This document shows, piece after piece, positions 46,575-55,455 of a stretch of 64,000 nucleotides of DNA. Positions within the stretch are counted from its first letter, which is position 1, and each line of letters starts with the position of its first letter. Source of the stretch: Amycolatopsis lexingtonensis (GTDB taxonomy: Bacteria; Actinomycetota; Actinomycetes; Mycobacteriales; Pseudonocardiaceae); assembly GCF_014873755.1 (NCBI RefSeq), contig NZ_JADBEG010000001.1:8344501-8408500 (forward strand), given 5' to 3'. The notes beneath the pieces were generated by a model, which was not told the DNA's origin, did not search any database, and saw only the letters and a program-made list of their open reading frames with translations. Both the position numbers and the translations under genes were made by a program.

Positions 46575-47318
46575 TTAAGCCGCCTGGTTGCCGCGCCAGG
46601 CCGGGGTGTGGAAGGGGCGGGGGAACTGGACGATCCGGGTCGGCTCGGCCACCCGGTGCCGGGCCAGCCACGCGACGTCGCGGCCGAACGACCACACCAG
46701 CGACCCCAGCGCGACCGCGACCAGGGCAAACGTCACCGCCATCGGCAGCAGCCCGGACACCGCGACCACCAGCACCACGCCCTGCACCGCGGCCACCGTC
46801 TTGCGCGCCATGCTCGGGTACAGCGGCGCGGTCAGCCACGGCATCGTCCACGAAGCCGCGACGAACACGTACCGCATCAGGCCGATCGCCAGCACCCACA
46901 GCCCGAGCGTGCGGGACACCTGGACGCACAGCAGGAGGATCAGGAACGCGTCGACCTCCATGTCGAACCGCGCGCCGAACTCCGACGTCGTGCCGGTGCG
47001 GCGGGCCACCTGGCCGTCGAGGCCGTCCAGCAGGAGGGCCACGCCGGTCAGCCCGACCAGCCACGCGACGGACAGGCCGCCGTCGGCGATCAGTTCCGCG
47101 GCGCACCCGACGAGCGTCGCGCGGGCGAACGTGATCCAGTCGGCCGCGCTGAACGCGGCGCGGCCGGCGCGGCGCAGGCCCCACTCGGTCAGCAGCACGA
47201 GGGCGATCCCGAAGGTGAGCCCGGTGGCCCAGGCGAGGGGGGACAGGCCCGCGACGACCCCCGCGGCGAGCACCCACGCCGGCACCACCGCGCGCAGGAG
47301 AAGGTCCTGTTTGATCAT
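46575..47318 (-). CDS. CDP-alcohol phosphatidyltransferase
   Basis: A 247-residue membrane enzyme that joins a CDP-activated alcohol or lipid to a second alcohol. The diagnostic DGx2ARx8Gx3Dx3D motif reads DGQVARRTGTTSEFGARFDM (about residues 106-125), then EVD. About six helices are predicted. The best ATG is at 47318; an alternative 12 codons upstream would overlap the divergent promoter. It is divergent from, and may be co-regulated with, the pterin-like gene run starting at 47386, where it could make a phospho-lipid head group. Confidence 0.87.
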   Translation of the reverse strand: MIKQDLLLRAVVPAWVLAAGVVAGLSPLAWATGLTFGIALVLLTEWGLRRAGRAAFSAADWITFARATLVGCAAELIADGGLSVAWLVGLTGVALLLDGLDGQVARRTGTTSEFGARFDMEVDAFLILLLCVQVSRTLGLWVLAIGLMRYVFVAASWTMPWLTAPLYPSMARKTVAAVQGVVLVVAVSGLLPMAVTFALVAVALGSLVWSFGRDVAWLARHRVAEPTRIVQFPRPFHTPAWRGNQAA

Positions 47319-47385
47319 CGTCGACTCCGCGAATTGCTCATAGGGTGGCGACACCAGCCTCCGGTCGCCCGCTGAGGAGAAACAC

Positions 47386-48348
47386 GTGGAACAGGCTTTC
47401 TGGGTTCAACGGCCCGGTGTCGGGGAGTTGCGGGAGGAGCGGCTGCCCGAGCCGGGATCGGACGAGGTGCTCGTCCGCACGCTCTGCTCCGGCGTCAGCC
47501 GCGGCACCGAAACGCTCGTCTTCCGCGGCGGGGTCCCGGCGAGCCAGCACGACGTCATGCGCGCGCCCTTCCAGGACGGCGGCTTCCCCGGCCCGGTCAA
47601 GTACGGGTACCTCAACGTCGGCGTCGTCGAACGCGGCCCGGCCGACCTCGAGGGCCGGATCGTCTTCTGCCTCTACCCGCACCAGACCGCGTACGTCGTC
47701 CCCGCGAGCGCGGTGACGCCGGTGCCCGACAACGTCCCGCCCGGCCGCGCGATCCTGGCCGGCACCGTCGAGACCGCGGTGAACGCCGTGTGGGACGCCC
47801 GGCCGCGGCTCGGCGACCGGATCGCCGTCATCGGCGCCGGGATGGTCGGCGCCAGCGTCGCGAAGCTCCTGAGCGGCTTCCCGGCGACGCGGGTGCAGCT
47901 CGTCGACGTCGACCCGTCACGCGCCGACGTCGCCGAAGCGCTCGGTGTCGACTTCTCGACCCCGGAGCGTGCCCACGGCGACTGCGACCTCGTCGTGCAC
48001 GCCAGCGCGAGCGAAGCCGGGCTCACCCGCGCGCTGGAACTGCTCGCGCCGGAAGGCGAAGTCGTGGAAATGTCGTGGTACGGCGACCGCCGGGTGAGCG
48101 TCCCGCTCGGCGAGCACTTCCATTCGCGGCGCCTGGCGATCCGCGCCAGCCAGGTCGGGACGGTCGCGCGGCCGGACCGCGGCTACGCCCAGCGGATGGC
48201 CGTGGCGCTGGAGCTGCTGGCCGATCCGGCGTTCGAAGCACTGGTCAGCGGCGAGTGCGCGTTTGAAGATCTGCCGTCCGTGCTACCCCGGCTGGCCGGG
48301 AATGAACTTTCCGCGCTCTGCCTCCGTGTCATGTATCAGCCGCAGTGA
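47386..48348 (+). CDS. MDR-superfamily dehydrogenase of the GTP cyclohydrolase cluster
   Basis: A 320-residue medium-chain dehydrogenase-like protein. The nucleotide fold is clear: [32 protein letters not shown] (about residues 146-177). The N-terminal GroES-like part has [16 protein letters not shown], but the GHE catalytic motif is replaced by a [11 protein letters not shown] stretch and the structural zinc cysteines are absent, so zinc alcohol dehydrogenase activity is doubtful. It resembles sugar- or porphyrin-type dehydrogenases. It begins the gene run leading to GTP cyclohydrolase II and is 31 bp from the next gene. Confidence 0.85.
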
Positions 48349-48379
48349 CCACGTCCACCCGAACGCATCGGAGGTCTTG

Positions 48380-48778
48380 GTGTTCAGCATCACCGTCCGT
48401 GACCACATGATGGTCGCCCACAGCTTCCGCGGGGAAGTCTTCGGTCCCGCGCAACGCCTGCACGGCGCGACCTTCGTGGTGGATGCGACCTTCCGCCGCG
48501 CCGAGCTCGACGAGGACAACATCGTCGTCGACATCGGCAAGGCCACGGAAGAGCTCAAGGCGGTGCTGAGCGACCTGAACTACCGCAACCTCGACGACGA
48601 GCCGGAGTTCAAGGGCGTCAACACCTCCACCGAGTTCCTCGCGAAGGTCGTCGCCGACCGCCTCGCCGACGCCGTGCACGCCGGACGCCTCGGCGAAGGC
48701 GCGCGCGGCCTCGAAGGCATCGCCGTCTCGCTCAAGGAGTCGCACGTCGCCTGGGCGAGTTACGAGCGTGCGCTGTGA
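48380..48778 (+). CDS. PTPS/QueD-fold protein with altered active site
   Basis: A 132-residue member of the 6-pyruvoyl-tetrahydropterin synthase/6-carboxytetrahydropterin synthase family. The fold is plain: AHSF (His14), [10 protein letters not shown] (His28) and VSLKESH (Glu120). Against E. coli QueD, the catalytic Cys is Ala24, the second His of the HGH zinc motif is Ala30, and the Asp-His pair is Asn67-Tyr68. Ordinary PTPS or QueD chemistry is therefore unlikely. A GTG start follows GGAG by six bases. It overlaps the glycosyltransferase start in a GTGA. A new pterin-like reaction or a binding role is possible. Confidence 0.85.
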
Positions 48779-49842
48779 CCGCGGTGTATGTGGTCCTCCC
48801 CGGGGACGTCGACGACGCGTCCGTCCCGAGCGGGGGCAACACCTACGACCGCCGGCTGTGCGACCGGCTGACCGCCGCCGGGCTCGACGTGCACGAGATC
48901 GCCGTCGCCGGTTCCTGGCCGCGGCCGGACACCGAGGCCCGCGCGGTCCTCGGCCACCTGCTCGCCGCGCTGCCCACCGGGTCCGCCGTGCTGCTCGACG
49001 GCCTGGTCGCGTGCGGCGTGCCCGAGGTTGTCGTCCCGCAGGCCCGGCGCCTGTCCCTCTCGGTGCTGGTGCACCTGCCGCTGGCCGACGAGACGGGGCT
49101 GCCGCCCGCGCTCGCCGCCGAGCTCGACGCGCTGGAGCGCGAGACGCTCCGGGCCGCGAGCTCGGTCGTGGCGACCAGCGAGTGGGCCGCGCGCCGGCTG
49201 ACCGTCCACCACGGGCTGGCCCCGCACCGCGTGCACGCCGTGCCGCCTGGCGTCGACCCGGCACCGCCCGCCATCGGCACCGACGGGGTGTCCCGGCTGG
49301 TCTGCGTGGCCAACGTGACCCCGCGCAAGGGCCAGGGCGTGCTCGCCCAAGCGCTCGAAACCGTCGCCGACCTGCGCTGGACCTGCGAATGCGTCGGCGG
49401 GATCCGGCGCGAGACCAAGTACGTCGAGCGGTTGCGCGAGCACCGGCTCGGCGACCGCTTCACCCTCACCGGACCCCGCACCGGCGCGGCGCTCGAGGCG
49501 ACCTACCACACCGCCGACCTGCTCGTGCTGCCTTCGCGCGCCGAGACGTACGGCATGGTCGTCACCGAAGCCCTCGCCCGCGGCGTGCCGGTGCTGGCCA
49601 CCGCCGTCGACGCGCTGCCCGACACGCTCGGTGTCGCGCCCGACGGCTCGGTGCCCGGGATGCTCGTCCCCGGTGACGACGTCGAGGCGCTCGGGGCCGC
49701 GTTGCGCCGCTGGCTCACCGAGCCCGAGCTGCGGACGCGGCTGCGTGCCGCGGCGAAGCTGCGCCGCGAGACCCTGACCGGCTGGGACGACACCGCCCGC
49801 CGGATCGCCGACATCGTGCAGCGGCAGGAGGCGGCGGCATGA
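48775..49842 (+). CDS. GT4 family glycosyltransferase (active copy)
   Basis: A 355-residue GT-B retaining glycosyltransferase of family 4. The N-terminal loop [14 protein letters not shown] binds acceptor or phosphate, VTPRKGQ (Arg184-Lys185) contacts the nucleotide diphosphate, and [17 protein letters not shown] provides the EX7E pair E257 and E265. No membrane helix. It would attach a sugar from a nucleotide sugar to the product of this cluster. It overlaps the genes on both sides by 4 bp. A paralogue at 55521 has lost the EX7E glutamates. Confidence 0.9.
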
Positions 49843-50669
49843 CCGCGTTCGCGCCGGACTGGCTCTACCTGCGGGAACCCGCCGACGCCGCGGCCCGCGC
49901 CCCCGAACTCGTCGACACGCTGCGCGACAGCCTCGCCGGCGGCGAAGAGATCGTCATCCGCGACCTCGGCTGCGGCACCGGCTCGCTCGGCCGCTGGCTG
50001 GCCGGCCGGCTGCCCGGCGCCCAGCGCTGGATCCTGCACGACAACGACACCGCCCTGCTCGACCGCGCCCGCACCGGCTTGCCCGCCACCGCGCTCGACG
50101 GCAGCCCGATCGCCGTGGAGGCCGAGCGGCGGGACGTCACCGCGCTGCGCGCCGCCGACCTCGCCGGGACGTCGCTGGTCACCGCGTCCGCGCTGCTCGA
50201 CCTGCTGACCAGGGACGAGGTCACGGCGCTGGCCACGGCCGTCGTCGAAGCGGGCTGCGCGGCGCTGCTGATGCTGTCGGTCACCGGCAAGGTGGAGCTC
50301 TCGCCCGCCGACCCGCTCGACCCGGCCATCTCGGCCGCGTTCAACGCCCACCAGCGGCGGCTGACCGGCGGCCGCCGGCTGCTCGGCCCGACCGCGGTGG
50401 ACGTCGCCGCGACCGCGTTCGGCAGGCTCGGCGCCACGGTCGTCCGCGCGGAGAGCGCGTGGCGGCTCGGGCCGGACCAGGCGGAACTGCAGCGGCAGTG
50501 GCTCGAAGGCTGGGTCGGCGCCGCCGTCGAGCAGCTGCCCGAGCTGTGCCCGGTCACCGACGTCTACCTGCAGCGACGGCTCGAAATGGCCGCGGCCGGG
50601 GAGCTGCACGCGGTGGTCCACCACGGCGACCTGCTGGTCCTGCCGCCGAGCCTGGAGGCGGCGGCGTGA
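49839..50669 (+). CDS. SAM-dependent methyltransferase
   Basis: A 276-residue class I methyltransferase. Motif I is IRDLGCGTGSLGRWLAGRL (about residues 39-57), and the acidic post-I loop is ILHDNDTALLDRAR. SALLDLLTRDEV (about 113-124) gives motif IV-V. The target may be a hydroxyl or amine of the pterin- or sugar-derived product. It is translationally coupled to the glycosyltransferase before it (ATGA) and to the membrane protein after it (GTGA). Confidence 0.88.
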   Translation: MTAFAPDWLYLREPADAAARAPELVDTLRDSLAGGEEIVIRDLGCGTGSLGRWLAGRLPGAQRWILHDNDTALLDRARTGLPATALDGSPIAVEAERRDVTALRAADLAGTSLVTASALLDLLTRDEVTALATAVVEAGCAALLMLSVTGKVELSPADPLDPAISAAFNAHQRRLTGGRRLLGPTAVDVAATAFGRLGATVVRAESAWRLGPDQAELQRQWLEGWVGAAVEQLPELCPVTDVYLQRRLEMAAAGELHAVVHHGDLLVLPPSLEAAA

Positions 50670-51664
50670 AGCGCGCACTGGCCTGGCTCCGGATCCTCGG
50701 CGCGGCAGGCATCCTCGCGGTGCTCGTCTGGCAGCTCGGCAGCGCCGCCTTCCTCGACGGCCTCGGCCGGATCAGCACGCCCGGCGTGCTCGCCGCGCTC
50801 GGCATCGGCTTCGCGACGACGCTGTTCAGCGCGGGGCGCTGGCAGATCGTCGCCACCCGGCTCGGCCTGCGGCTTTCGCTGCGCACCGCGGTCGCCGACT
50901 ACTACCGCGCGCTGTTCCTCAACGGCGTGCTGCCCGCGGGCGTCCTCGGCGACGTCCACCGCGCGGTGCAGCACGGCCGCGACGCCGGCGACGTGCCGCG
51001 CGGCGTGCGCGCCGTCGTCCTGGAGCGGACCGCGGGCCAGCTCGTGCTGATCGCGTCCGCCGTGGGCGTCGTGCTCTTCGTCCCGGCCGCCGTGCCCGAG
51101 GCGTTCCGCGAGGTCGTGACGGTCACCGGTGTGGTCGTCGTGCTGGCCGCCGTCGCCGGGATCGTCGCCGGCCGGCTGTTCGGCGGGCGCTGGATCCACA
51201 GCCCGTCGAAGGTCCGGCGCGGCTTCGCCGTCACCCTGGCCGACCTGCGGCTCGGCCTGTTCACCCGCGAGACCTGGCCCGGCGTGGGCTTCCTGTCGGC
51301 CGCGACGCTGGCCGGGCACCTGGCGCTGTTCGTCGTCGCCGCCCGCGTCGCCGGGGTGGCCGCACCGGTCGGGCAGCTCGTGCCGCTGATGATCCTCGCG
51401 CTGCTCGCGATGGGTCTCCCGCTCAACATCGGCGGCTTCGGCCCGCGCGAGGGCGTCTGCGCCCTGCTCTTCGGCGCGGCCGGGCTCGGGGCCGCCCAAG
51501 GTGTCACCGTCGCTGTCGTCTACGGCGTGCTCACGCTCTTCGCGAGCCTGCCCGGCGCCGGCGTCCTGCTCGTCCGGAGCGTCGCCGGGGTGCGCCGGAC
51601 GGCACTTTCACGTGAAAGTGCCGCACGACCAGCCCCGCACTTTCACGTGAAAGTGCGGGGTTAG
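50666..51664 (+). CDS. Lysylphosphatidylglycerol synthase TM-region/UPF0104 membrane protein
   Basis: A 332-residue integral membrane protein with about eight helices, of the family that forms the flippase part of Mpr[22 protein letters not shown] and [21 protein letters not shown] are the conserved segments. In this cluster it could flip a glycolipid-like product. The last 20 residues, [17 protein letters not shown] at the end, are encoded by two DNA palindromes and look like read-through into a terminator rather than a real domain. The GTG start overlaps the methyltransferase stop. Confidence 0.88.
51601..51660. repeat. Twin perfect palindromes inside the 3' end of a gene
   Basis: GCACTTTCACGTGAAAGTGC occurs at 51602-51621 and again at 51637-51656. 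The first extends to a 22-bp perfect palindrome, the second to a 28-bp one (51633-51660) with G/C flanks. They lie inside the end of the membrane-protein gene, 18 bp before the GTP cyclohydrolase II start. They may form an attenuator between these two genes or a protein-binding site. Confidence 0.85.
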
Positions 51665-51677
51665 AGAGGTGGAGAAG

Positions 51678-52328
51678 ATGACAGCAAGCGACGTCATCGG
51701 GGACGTGCCGCACCGCCCTGTGGTGGAGCGGGTGGTCGACACCCGGCTGCCGACCCGGTACGGGACCTTCCGCGCGGTCGGCTACCTGGACGACACGGGT
51801 ACCGAGCAGGTCGCGCTGGTGCACGGCGAGATCAGTGAGCTGGGGACGCTGACCCGCGTGCACAGCGAATGCCTGACCGGCGACGTCTTCGCCTCGATGC
51901 ACTGCGAGTGCGGCGACCAGCTGGCGGCGGCGCTGGACCGGATCGTCGAGGAGGGCTCCGGCGTGCTGGTCTACGTCCAGGGCCACGAGGGCCGCGGCAT
52001 CGGCCTGCTCGCGAAGCTGAAGGCGATGCGGCTGCAGGACGAAGGCCTCGACACGGTCGACGCGAACGTGGCGCTCGGCCTCCCGATCGACGCCCGCGAC
52101 TACCACGCGGCGGCGGGCATCCTGCAGGACCTGGGCGTCCGGTCGGTGCGGCTGCTGTCGAACAACCCGGAGAAGGTCGAACAGCTGACGCGCTACGGAA
52201 TCCGGATCAGCGAGCGGGTCCCGCTGCTGGTTCCGCCGAACCCGGAGAACCTGCGGTACCTCCGCACGAAGGCCGAGCGGATGGCTCACCTGCTCCCGCA
52301 CCTGGACCAGGCTTTCTCAGGCGCCTAA
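51678..52328 (+). CDS. ribA: GTP cyclohydrolase II, variant with Met at the Tyr105-equivalent position
   Basis: A 216-residue enzyme that opens the imidazole ring of GTP. Zinc cysteines are in [18 protein letters not shown] (Cys65, Cys76, Cys78) and the active-site loop is [14 protein letters not shown]. The next helix reads KAMRLQDEG, with Met117 where E. coli RibA has Tyr. In Streptomyces coelicolor a paralogue with Met here is reported to stop at the 5-formylamino-pyrimidine (FAPy) product. Its location away from riboflavin genes and next to a creatininase supports such a specialised role. A GTG three codons earlier is possible. Confidence 0.92.
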
Positions 52329-53015
52329 CGCGTCGAGCACGCCGGCGAACCGCTGGACCAGGGTGTCCAGCAGGACGTGCCCCTTGGCCGCGCTGGCCAG
52401 CGACGGACGGCCGACCACGCCCGACTCCGTGTACGCCCGCAGGCCCCGCGTCAGCAGGTGCTCCCGGTCGGTGAGGTGGTCGGCCGCCTCGTAGCCGGGC
52501 CGGACCAGGTGCGGGTGCGCGTGCAGCAGGAGCGACGTCTCCAGTTCGCCCGCGTGCATGTCGTCGTCCAGCGACGTCCGCAGGCCGGCCGCGGTGTGCG
52601 CCGCCTGCCAGTCCGCGACGCCGGGGAACAGCGCCATCGTGCCGCCCGCCTCCTGGACCACATTGGACAGTACGTAGTTGCCGCCGTGCCCGTTGACCAG
52701 CACGAGCCGGCCGACCCCGGACGCCGCGAGCGACTCGGCGACGTCGGTGACCACGGCGTGCAGCGTGCGGGCCGAGATGCTCACCGTGCCGGCCCACCCC
52801 GCGTGTTCGTGCGAGCACGAGATCGTGATCGGCGGCAGGTGGAGCACCGGGTACGCCTCGGCAACGGCCTTCGCGAGGGTCGCCGCGATCACCGCGTCGG
52901 TGGCCAGGGGGAGGTGCGCGCCGTGCTGCTCGAAGCTGCCCACCGGCAGCACCGCGACCGATGCCCGCCGCGCCTGCTCGTCGGCGGTGGTCGCGAGCGG
53001 GAACAGATCGGTCAT
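52317..53015 (-). CDS. Creatininase family protein (ArfB-like formamide hydrolase candidate)
   Basis: A 232-residue creatininase-fold metal hydrolase. Metal ligands are in [16 protein letters not shown] (Glu, His, Asp near residues 28-40), NGHGGNY (His about 109) and HAGELETS (Glu about 157). Creatininase itself cleaves creatinine, but the archaeal relative ArfB removes the formyl group from the FAPy nucleotide made by GTP cyclohydrolase III. Here it overlaps GTP cyclohydrolase II by 12 bp end to end. FAPy deformylation is thus the leading hypothesis. The MftE mycofactocin peptidase is another relative, but no mycofactocin genes are present. Confidence 0.87.
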
Positions 53016-53044
53016 GAGCGCGGCCCTTCTCTATGTTGGGTGGC

Positions 53045-53845
53045 ATGACCGAGCATGCCGCACTGCTGGCCGTCGCGCGCGAAGCCGTGGCGAAGGCGAC
53101 CGGGATCGTCCGGTCGCGCCCGACCTTTTCCGTTTCCGCGAAAGGCGATCGCGACCTGGTGACCGACGTCGACACCGCCGTCGAGGACGCGCTGCGGGAG
53201 TTCCTCGCCGCGGAAACCCCCGAAATCGGCTTCCTCGGCGAGGAGCGCGGCCGCAGCGGCGCGGACGGCGGGCGCTGGTGGGCCCTCGACCCGATCGACG
53301 GCACCGCGAACTTCGCCCGCGGGATTCCGCTCTGCGGGATTTCCCTGGCGCTGGTGGACGGCGAGCACAGCACGGTCGCCGCGATCGCCCTGCCGTACCT
53401 CGGAGTCACCTACACCGCCGCGCGCGGCGAAGGTGCTTTCGCGAACGGAGAGCGGGTCGGTGCGTCGCGCGCGACCGAGCTGTCCGACGCGATGATCGCG
53501 ATGGGTGACTTCGCGATCGGCGAACTCGCCGAAGAGAAGAACCGCGCGCGGCTGTCGTTGCTGACCGACCTCGGCGCGCGGGCGCAGAAGATCCGGATGC
53601 TGGGCACCGCGGCGATCGACCTCTCCTGGGTCGCGGACGGAAAGCTCGACGCCGCACTGATCCTGTCCAACAACCCGTGGGACACCATGGCGGGTGTGCT
53701 GCTCGTGCGCGAGGCAGGCGGTGCCGTCGTCGACCGTGACGGCAGCGAGCACACGGTCGGTTCCGCGGCGACGATCGCCGTCGGCGCCGGGCTGCGCAAG
53801 GAGATCGTGGACGCACTTGATCGAGCGTTCGGGGTTGTTCGTTAG
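53045..53845 (+). CDS. Inositol monophosphatase family protein
   Basis: A 266-residue Mg-dependent phosphatase. EERG (about 73-76), WWALDPIDGTANFARGIP (about 85-102; metal-binding DPIDGT) and NNPWDTMAGVLLVREAGG (about 219-236) are the three family motifs. It may remove a phosphate from inositol, a sugar or the nucleotide-derived intermediate of the adjoining cluster; histidinol phosphatase is another activity in the family. It is divergent from the creatininase gene over a 29-bp gap with a CTATGTT box and so may share its control. Confidence 0.9.
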   Translation: MTEHAALLAVAREAVAKATGIVRSRPTFSVSAKGDRDLVTDVDTAVEDALREFLAAETPEIGFLGEERGRSGADGGRWWALDPIDGTANFARGIPLCGISLALVDGEHSTVAAIALPYLGVTYTAARGEGAFANGERVGASRATELSDAMIAMGDFAIGELAEEKNRARLSLLTDLGARAQKIRMLGTAAIDLSWVADGKLDAALILSNNPWDTMAGVLLVREAGGAVVDRDGSEHTVGSAATIAVGAGLRKEIVDALDRAFGVVR

Positions 53846-53982
53846 TATTCGGGGTATCCGGGTGGGCGGCGCCACAACGCGCGATTGCACTGCCCGCCCA
53901 AGGTTTTCGGTTAGGTTGGTACCGGTCGGCCGCCGCGGCTGGCATGCTGACCGGATCTCTCGGCCACTTCGGAGAATGGTGG

Positions 53983-55455
53983 ATGCTCGTGGAAAGTCGC
54001 CGGATCCGCGATCGGTACCGGCTGCTCGAGCCGATCGGCGGCGGCGCGATGGGCACGGTGTGGCGAGCCCAGGACGAAAAGCTCGACCGCACCGTGGCGA
54101 TCAAGGAACTCCTGCTGCCCCACGACCACGACGAGCACCGCACGGAAGAAGCGAAGAACCGCGCGATGCGCGAGGCGCGGATCGCCGCCCGGCTGCAGCA
54201 TTCCCACGCGATCACCGTGTTCGCCGTCCTCGAAGAGGAGGACCGGCCGTGGTTGATCATGGAATACCTGCCGTCGAAGAGTTTCGCCGTCCTGGTCCGC
54301 GAGGAGCCGGCGACGGTGGACGACGCCATCCGCGTCGGCGCGCAGATCAGTTCCGCGCTGGCGGGCGCGCACCGCGTCGGAGTCGTGCACCGCGACGTGA
54401 AGCCGGCCAACATCCTGGTCGCCGAGGACGGAACGGCGAAGATCACCGACTTCGGCATCTCCCGCGCGATCGGTGACGTCAAGCTGACGGCCACCGGCGA
54501 GATCGCCGGCACGCCCGCGTACCTCGCGCCCGAAGTGGCCCGGGGTGAGGACGCGAGCTTCGCCGCCGACGTCTTCTCCCTCGGCGCGACGCTGTACGCG
54601 GCGGTCGAAGGGAAGCCGCCGTACGGCACGGCGGACAACCCGATCGCCTTGCTCTACAAGGCGTCCAGCGGCGAGATCGAGCCGCCGGAGAAGTCGGGCC
54701 GGCTGACGCCGCTGCTGCTGCGGATGCTCGCTTCCGACCCGGCCGAACGGCCGTCGATGGACGAGGTCGAGCGGGAGCTGGTCGCGCTGCTGCCGGACGC
54801 GGAGCCCGGCGAGTCGGTGCTCGCGGCGACGGTCCCCGAGACCGAACCGCCCGCGCTGCCGCCGGTGCCCGCCGCGGTCACCGTGCCCGCGGGCGAGGTC
54901 GCCGCGGTGTCCCCGGGCGCGCGCAGGGGCATGATCGCCGTCGGGGCGGGCGCGGCGCTGCTGTGCGTCGCGGTCGTGGTGGCGATCCTGCTGGTCGTGC
55001 GCCAGAAGCCGCCGGCCGACAACGCGGCACCGCAAGCGTCGGTACCGCCGCCCACCTCGGCTTCGGGCACCCCGTCGGCGGCCCCGCCCCCGGCGCCGAC
55101 GTCCACGTCGGAAACACCCACCACGACGGCCCCGCCCACCTCGACGCCGGTGTCGAGCGTGGCTTCGACGAAGACCGCGGCCGAAGCCCTCAGCGCCTAC
55201 TACGCGTTGCTCCCGAACAACACAGCGGAGGCGTGGAACCTGCTCACGGAACGCTTCAAGGCGTCGCGCAAGCAGACGCTGGCGACCTACCAGAGTTTCT
55301 GGCGCCAGTACAAGTCGGTGACGGCGGACAGCGTGCGGGAGATCAGCCCCGGCCGGGTCACCGCGCGCGTCCTCTACGACGGCGGCAAGCCGGAGACCGA
55401 CACGTTCACCTTGGTCCAGGAAGGCGGCGTCTGGAAGATCGACGCCCAGAGCTGA
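53983..55455 (+). CDS. Membrane Ser/Thr protein kinase (PknB-like)
   Basis: A 490-residue eukaryotic-type kinase. The kinase domain (residues 10-270) has GGGAMGTVW, the ATP lysine K41, HRDVKPANIL (Asp138) and DFG (156-158). A single helix at about 317-339 anchors it, followed by a Pro/Thr/Ser-rich linker (about 345-400) and an extracytoplasmic domain (about 400-490) that resembles a small NTF2-like fold, not PASTA repeats. The ATG at 53983 has GGAG eight bases before; an upstream ATG at 53944 has none. The signal sensed is unknown. Confidence 0.92.
   Translation: MLVESRRIRDRYRLLEPIGGGAMGTVWRAQDEKLDRTVAIKELLLPHDHDEHRTEEAKNRAMREARIAARLQHSHAITVFAVLEEEDRPWLIMEYLPSKSFAVLVREEPATVDDAIRVGAQISSALAGAHRVGVVHRDVKPANILVAEDGTAKITDFGISRAIGDVKLTATGEIAGTPAYLAPEVARGEDASFAADVFSLGATLYAAVEGKPPYGTADNPIALLYKASSGEIEPPEKSGRLTPLLLRMLASDPAERPSMDEVERELVALLPDAEPGESVLAATVPETEPPALPPVPAAVTVPAGEVAAVSPGARRGMIAVGAGAALLCVAVVVAILLVVRQKPPADNAAPQASVPPPTSASGTPSAAPPPAPTSTSETPTTTAPPTSTPVSSVASTKTAAEALSAYYALLPNNTAEAWNLLTERFKASRKQTLATYQSFWRQYKSVTADSVREISPGRVTARVLYDGGKPETDTFTLVQEGGVWKIDAQS

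Follow-up and report, generated by a model that had tools for sequence, protein, structure and literature searches.

A GTP cyclohydrolase II without its tyrosine and a creatininase-family protein co-vary in an actinobacterial gene cluster and probably open GTP in two steps

Deformylation of a formylaminopyrimidine (FAPy) is known from archaea, where it is the work of ArfB. We analysed a gene cluster of Amycolatopsis lexingtonensis (genome of 10.7 Mb, one contig) that lies in a 64,000-nucleotide stretch of contig NZ_JADBEG010000001.1 (positions 8,344,501 to 8,408,500; here called the window) and that encodes, among other proteins, a GTP cyclohydrolase II and a creatininase-family protein. For this pair we predict the reaction order of the archaeal ArfA-ArfB-ArfC route. 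The two routes differ in the first step, which belongs to GTP cyclohydrolase III (GCH III) in archaea and to GTP cyclohydrolase II here, and neither deaminase nor lumazine genes were noticed among those of the cluster. All scores against the ArfB and ArfC models are below their cut-offs, and the ArfB match is weak.

In bacteria, the creatininase-annotated riboflavin formamidase BrbF of Sinorhizobium meliloti (SMc02977) deformylates AFRPP, the 5'-phosphate of FAPy (PMC9478397). Its authors did not find a partner cyclohydrolase and left more distant relatives open. The creatininase-family protein of the window resembles BrbF in annotation and predicted reaction. It differs in that BrbF serves riboflavin and no partner was found for it, whereas here a candidate partner is encoded in the same cluster. 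The other close comparison is the SCO6650/SCO6655 neighbourhood of Streptomyces coelicolor. SCO6650 has a solved structure and no assigned function, PMC2853524 lists SCO6655 as a GTP cyclohydrolase II, and the neighbourhood is still unassigned in the literature searched. Our locus shares with it an orthologue of SCO6650, a protein of the 6-pyruvoyltetrahydropterin synthase (PTPS) fold, and the GTP cyclohydrolase II; we add the co-variation of a creatininase, a CDP-alcohol phosphatidyltransferase, an ArfC-like reductase and versions of the cluster that bear the tyrosine (Tyr). A literature search, limited in coverage, gave no account of this pathway. Reaction and enzyme superfamily were both known before; what is new is their coupling to a cyclohydrolase without Tyr in an actinobacterial cluster. 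If the proposal is true, the cluster offers a bacterial example of a creatininase-family formamidase with its cyclohydrolase partner encoded alongside, and the co-variation supplies a concrete first reaction sequence for it.

The cluster belongs to soil actinobacteria; its PTPS-fold gene is present in 57 of 394 sampled genomes of the class, and in 26 of 138 genera. A creatininase orthologue occurs in 33 of these 57 genomes, and in all 33 the cluster cyclohydrolase has Met, His, Leu or Gln in place of Tyr (15, 4 and 13 cases from three scans, plus the window). The remaining 24 genomes have no creatininase orthologue: every creatininase candidate in them was scored, and the best reached 130 bits, whereas orthologues from three control genomes scored 375 to 413 bits in that search. 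A Tyr cyclohydrolase lies near the cluster in 13 of the 24, a count that includes two distant loci (L121 and L123) in which the nearby gene is on the opposite strand and may be a housekeeping gene. In the other 11, the fetched stretch contains no cyclohydrolase, and the genome as a whole carries only Tyr forms. Some whole-genome scans for creatininases and reductases scored at most seven candidates per genome, so their match counts are lower bounds. Because the creatininase accompanies the cluster, in the genomes examined, exactly where the cyclohydrolase is without Tyr, it most likely takes over deformylation, an activity lost from the Tyr-less cyclohydrolase. The initial annotation had proposed that the two enzymes act in series. 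Comparison supports this proposal well, with agreement in all 33 genomes that have the creatininase and in all 24 that do not, and with joint changes on a tree of other cluster genes.

The same association is seen at the level of loci. A contig scan with the PTPS-fold protein returned 429 relatives, and we took the best 80 of the 429, dominated by Streptomyces and Amycolatopsis, together with 39 stretches around class-sample matches and one distant Streptomyces-family stretch, as 120 related loci. Cluster cyclohydrolases without Tyr are found in 77 of them (Met 52, His 17, Leu 6, Gln 2). A creatininase gene lies within the fetched stretch in 76 of these 77, and in the last (L108) it is just outside, 13 kb from the PTPS gene. 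Tyr cyclohydrolases are found in 23 loci, none with a creatininase. In 20 loci the cyclohydrolase is absent from the stretch; L046 is among them and carries a partial creatininase. The cyclohydrolase and creatininase genes are divergent neighbours in 46 of the 76 loci, stand at opposite ends of the cluster in 15, converge in 9 and are otherwise arranged in 6. Micromonospora-type clusters, whose cyclohydrolases have Tyr, serve as an internal control, as they should need no formamidase.

Other cluster members are widely kept: the MDR-type dehydrogenase and the GT4 glycosyltransferase in 117 loci each, the flippase in 109, the methyltransferase in 108 and the CDP-alcohol phosphatidyltransferase in 107. 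The neighbourhood is thus conserved across genera, and the lack of conservation elsewhere that the initial annotation named as grounds against its proposal is not what we find. This holds for the core genes and not for the inositol-monophosphatase-family gene, which belongs to some lineages only (15 of 120 loci). Reduced clusters also occur. In L079 only the PTPS-fold gene is present; the GT4, flippase and cyclohydrolase genes are missing from L060 and L061; and L119, L120 and L122 hold only MDR, PTPS-fold and GT4 genes.

The window cyclohydrolase is a member of the GTP cyclohydrolase II family by its profile match (PF00925) and by its zinc cysteines C65, C76 and C78, which are invariant in 22 of 22 aligned rows; since these are kept, it is not a dead copy. 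At the position of Tyr105 of the E. coli enzyme (chain 2bz0), the residue of riboflavin-type enzymes, it has Met117, as the initial annotation had stated. Among the 120 best of 7896 database homologues listed, this position is Met in 114 and Leu in 6. In a tree of 88 cyclohydrolases the forms without Tyr make up one clade (support 90, not starred) in which 30 of 30 rows have no Tyr and the residue shifts among Met, His, Leu and Gln. Replacement of this Tyr, by Met in the S. coelicolor SCO6655-type enzyme, reportedly yields a GTP cyclohydrolase II that releases FAPy, a finding attributed to Spoonamore et al. 2006. The window cyclohydrolase is predicted, from its sequence, to release the formylaminopyrimidine. 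A 339-residue database protein (P0021) fuses a piece of a PF03706 flippase and a Met-type cyclohydrolase in one frame.

The cluster in the window comprises the following genes.

46575..47354, minus strand: CDP-alcohol phosphatidyltransferase family membrane protein (PF01066, 48.3 bits, cut-off 22), 31 bp from the divergent MDR gene
47386..48348, plus strand: MDR-type dehydrogenase with a distant likeness to BchC (TIGR01202, 47 bits, far below the cut-off of 291)
48380..48778, plus strand: PTPS (T-)fold protein, SCO6650 orthologue (PDB 3d7j), with Ala30 in place of the third zinc His and Glu120 retained
48775..49842, plus strand: GT4 glycosyltransferase (profile matches)
49839..50669, plus strand: S-adenosylmethionine-dependent methyltransferase (PF13649, 28.3 bits)
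50666..51664, plus strand: flippase-like membrane protein (PF03706, 107.7 bits)
51678..52328, plus strand: GTP cyclohydrolase II (PF00925, 220.1 bits; zinc cysteines C65, C76, C78), in which Met117 aligns with Tyr105 of the E. coli enzyme
52317..53015, minus strand: creatininase-family hydrolase, predicted formamidase (PF02633, 214.6 bits)
53045..53845, plus strand: inositol-monophosphatase-family phosphatase (profile matches), a member in some lineages only

Profile searches recovered every gene named in the initial annotation. They also added the CDP-alcohol phosphatidyltransferase gene (46575-47354, minus strand), a cluster member that had been overlooked. Its family assignment rests on the profile and on the DG-AR-G-D-D motif, whose residues D110, D113, G114, A117, R118, G127, D131 and D135 are invariant in 26 of 26 rows. 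Comparison of this enzyme and of the methyltransferase with solved structures gave only weak generic matches and no hint of a substrate. The 4-bp overlaps described for most of the forward genes are present at three of five junctions; the MDR and PTPS genes are separated by 31 bp, and the flippase and cyclohydrolase genes by 13 bp. As described, the creatininase gene meets the cyclohydrolase gene convergently, with an overlap of 12 bp, and the phosphatase gene diverges from it across 29 bp. By the PTPS-fold protein, the closest named relatives of the locus are Amycolatopsis.

We consider it probable that the cluster opens GTP in two steps, in which the cyclohydrolase takes the reaction only part of the way and the creatininase-like enzyme completes it. 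From the observed gene content, conservation, residue state and co-variation we infer every reaction of the pathway, final product included. The Tyr-less GTP cyclohydrolase II would cut the imidazole ring and halt at FAPy 5'-phosphate (AFRPP), and the creatininase-family protein would take off the formyl group to give 2,5-diamino-6-ribosylamino-4(3H)-pyrimidinone 5'-phosphate. In relatives, this diamino intermediate would come from a cluster cyclohydrolase that keeps Tyr or from the housekeeping enzyme. An ArfC-like reductase, encoded in related clusters and elsewhere in the window genome, would convert it to the ribityl form, from which the T-fold protein and the dehydrogenase would assemble the core structure. 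The GT4 enzyme, the methyltransferase, the CDP-alcohol phosphatidyltransferase and the flippase may then produce and transport a product that is glycosylated and perhaps linked to a lipid. The phosphatase could possibly remove the 5'-phosphate.

Shared ancestry was assessed on a tree of MDR, PTPS and GT4 proteins, built by a careful method from 53 rows thinned to less than 80% identity, with L121 and L123 dropped. On this tree the Tyr state and the presence of the creatininase each change six times, always jointly. At least four of the changes are required by well-supported branches, and all four independent pairs agree. The clearest case is a Pseudonocardia locus (L027) nested among Pseudonocardia that bear the creatininase: its cluster holds a different cyclohydrolase, with Tyr, and its genome has no creatininase orthologue (best match 120 bits). 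The change in Sciscionella (L046) rests on a creatininase that is matched over positions 3-174 of 233 only and is read as lost. The same genome has two full cyclohydrolases with Tyr and three weak partial matches that stop short of the residue. Another genome with Tyr (L024) has an apparent broken remnant of the creatininase on another contig.

The creatininase itself is a clear member of its family (PF02633, 214.6 bits). Its residues E29, H31, D40, H110, H154, E157 and E159, which we take to be the metal ligands, are present in all of the 120 best database homologues listed. The nearest curated model is that of MftE, from mycofactocin (TIGR03964, 136.3 bits), and as this best NCBIfam match is still below its cut-off of 172, an identity as an MftE-like peptidase was rejected. 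A sister subfamily scores 332 to 376 bits in whole-genome matches, plus one partial match, and is found in 11 class genomes in which the PTPS gene is absent; genome G173 has it as an additional copy. No cluster gene adjoins it in its loci (L157-L166; near 9 kb in most), except for a kinase match in L162. Standard cyclohydrolases in these genomes have Tyr; the exceptions are the Met form of the G173 cluster and, in genome G361, a second and divergent form that has Leu. As the sister subfamily lives without the cluster and in genomes with Tyr-bearing standard enzymes, it has, by this reasoning, another role. An NsdA-family TPR/HTH regulator stands beside it, passing the NF053720 cut-off in all four neighbours that were scanned with NCBIfam; two partial neighbours gave nothing in a Pfam scan, the only library used on them. 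Sister creatininase and regulator are perhaps a separate signalling pair, and the notion that a creatininase orthologue always signals this pathway was rejected on account of their cluster-free occurrence. In G361, two adjacent divergent GTP-cyclohydrolase-II-like genes (L189 and L190), one of them with Leu at the Tyr place, are unrelated to the cluster.

Several of these results weigh against a two-step opening of GTP. The pair test reaches a p value of 0.125 at best, with four independent pairs, and never 0.05. As the cyclohydrolases without Tyr form one clade, their gain may be a single event, with only losses or replacements recurring. L046 becomes discordant if its partial creatininase is counted as present. 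The ArfB model NF033501 gives the creatininase 33.9 bits against a cut-off of 180, and the cluster-free existence of the sister subfamily means that membership of the creatininase family alone does not prove deformylation.

The co-occurrence would be explained equally well if the formyl group were retained, so that the product of Tyr-less clusters were a formylated version and the creatininase hydrolysed another amide or lactam later in that branch. Creatininase-family substrates are varied, and the best NCBIfam match here is to a peptidase (MftE, 136 bits, below the cut-off of 172). However, the set of remaining cluster genes is the same with or without the pair, and two product types are required where deformylation requires one. 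The 11 clusters with neither gene sit in genomes that offer only Tyr cyclohydrolases, and a creatininase-family enzyme does deformylate AFRPP (PMC9478397). We regard retention of the formyl group as unlikely.

The two enzymes could instead provide an extra supply of riboflavin and be carried along with an unrelated glycolipid cluster. BrbF works in riboflavin synthesis in Sinorhizobium (PMC9478397), and 16 further matches are housekeeping-type cyclohydrolases that these genomes keep anyway. This explanation is very unlikely, as the pair stays with the MDR, PTPS and GT4 genes across several gene orders and all 33 cluster-clade creatininases of the class sample are located in PTPS genomes. A history without a functional link, in which an ancestral cluster held both genes and lineages deleted them jointly, would fit the single clade of non-Tyr cyclohydrolases and the small number of independent pairs (four on supported branches). 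Yet the rest of the cluster remains in most losses, the two genes are at opposite cluster ends rather than neighbours in 15 of 76 loci, and in L027, nested in creatininase-bearing Pseudonocardia, the cluster holds another cyclohydrolase, with Tyr, and no creatininase. Such hitchhiking has, in our judgement, hardly any chance of being the explanation.

Under the preferred two-step opening of GTP, a reductase would follow the creatininase. At least 18 of 65 related loci encode a RibD-C-type (ArfC-like) reductase, which the initial annotation did not mention, within the cluster or next to it; the count is a lower bound because the gene caller missed reductases near L085, L114 and L116. Four reductases scored 134.1, 133.5, 133.9 and 94.5 bits against the ArfC model TIGR01508, below its cut-off of 186.45; ArfC is the best model for three of the four, and that of L068 fits the bacterial RibD C-terminal model better. 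When coordinates were compared by hand, 15 of the 24 genomes that lack the creatininase had a reductase less than 6 kb from the PTPS gene. None of the 33 genomes with the creatininase did; in these it sits elsewhere or was not found. The reductase of the window genome is 1.27 Mb away (C1:9658409). Genome-wide, a reductase occurs in 48 of 57 PTPS genomes and in 55 of 337 others. Little weight attaches to this co-occurrence, since the reductase is also carried by Streptomyces that do not have the cluster.

The PTPS-fold protein aligns with SCO6650 over residues 1-132, all 132 residues, at 231.6 bits, as expected of an orthologue. It retains H14, H28 and E120, and the third zinc histidine of 6-pyruvoyltetrahydropterin synthase and QueD is Ala30 in 32 of 32 rows; a canonical PTPS/QueD identity was rejected for this reason. 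Glu120 is the residue that holds 2-amino-4-oxo rings in this fold, and its retention fits a substrate similar to FAPy or to a diaminopyrimidine.

A fuller scheme, in which the cluster makes a membrane-anchored pterin, a pterin glycophospholipid, without GTP cyclohydrolase I, is a speculative extension that we think has little chance of being correct as a whole. In this scheme cyclohydrolase and formamidase would yield the diaminopyrimidine and the ArfC-like reductase its ribityl chain. The MDR enzyme would oxidise C2' to a ketone and the zinc-less T-fold protein would close the ring to a neopterin-like compound, such that reduction and oxidation would stand in for the Amadori step. GT4 and methyltransferase would decorate the product, the CDP-alcohol phosphatidyltransferase would add a lipid and the flippase would turn it outward.

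Two perfect 20-bp palindromes, GCACTTTCACGTGAAAGTGC, lie at 51602-51621 and 51637-51656, at the end of the flippase gene and before the cyclohydrolase gene. The genome contains 42 copies, several as close pairs, and 0 copies of the reversed control; the palindrome looks like a genome-wide repeat, possibly terminator-like. The phosphatase gene is followed, at 53944-55455 and further downstream, by a gene for a serine/threonine kinase that has a C-terminal tail. A kinase occurs in 7 of the 120 loci, and in the nine near Amycolatopsis loci there follows a second GT4 gene.

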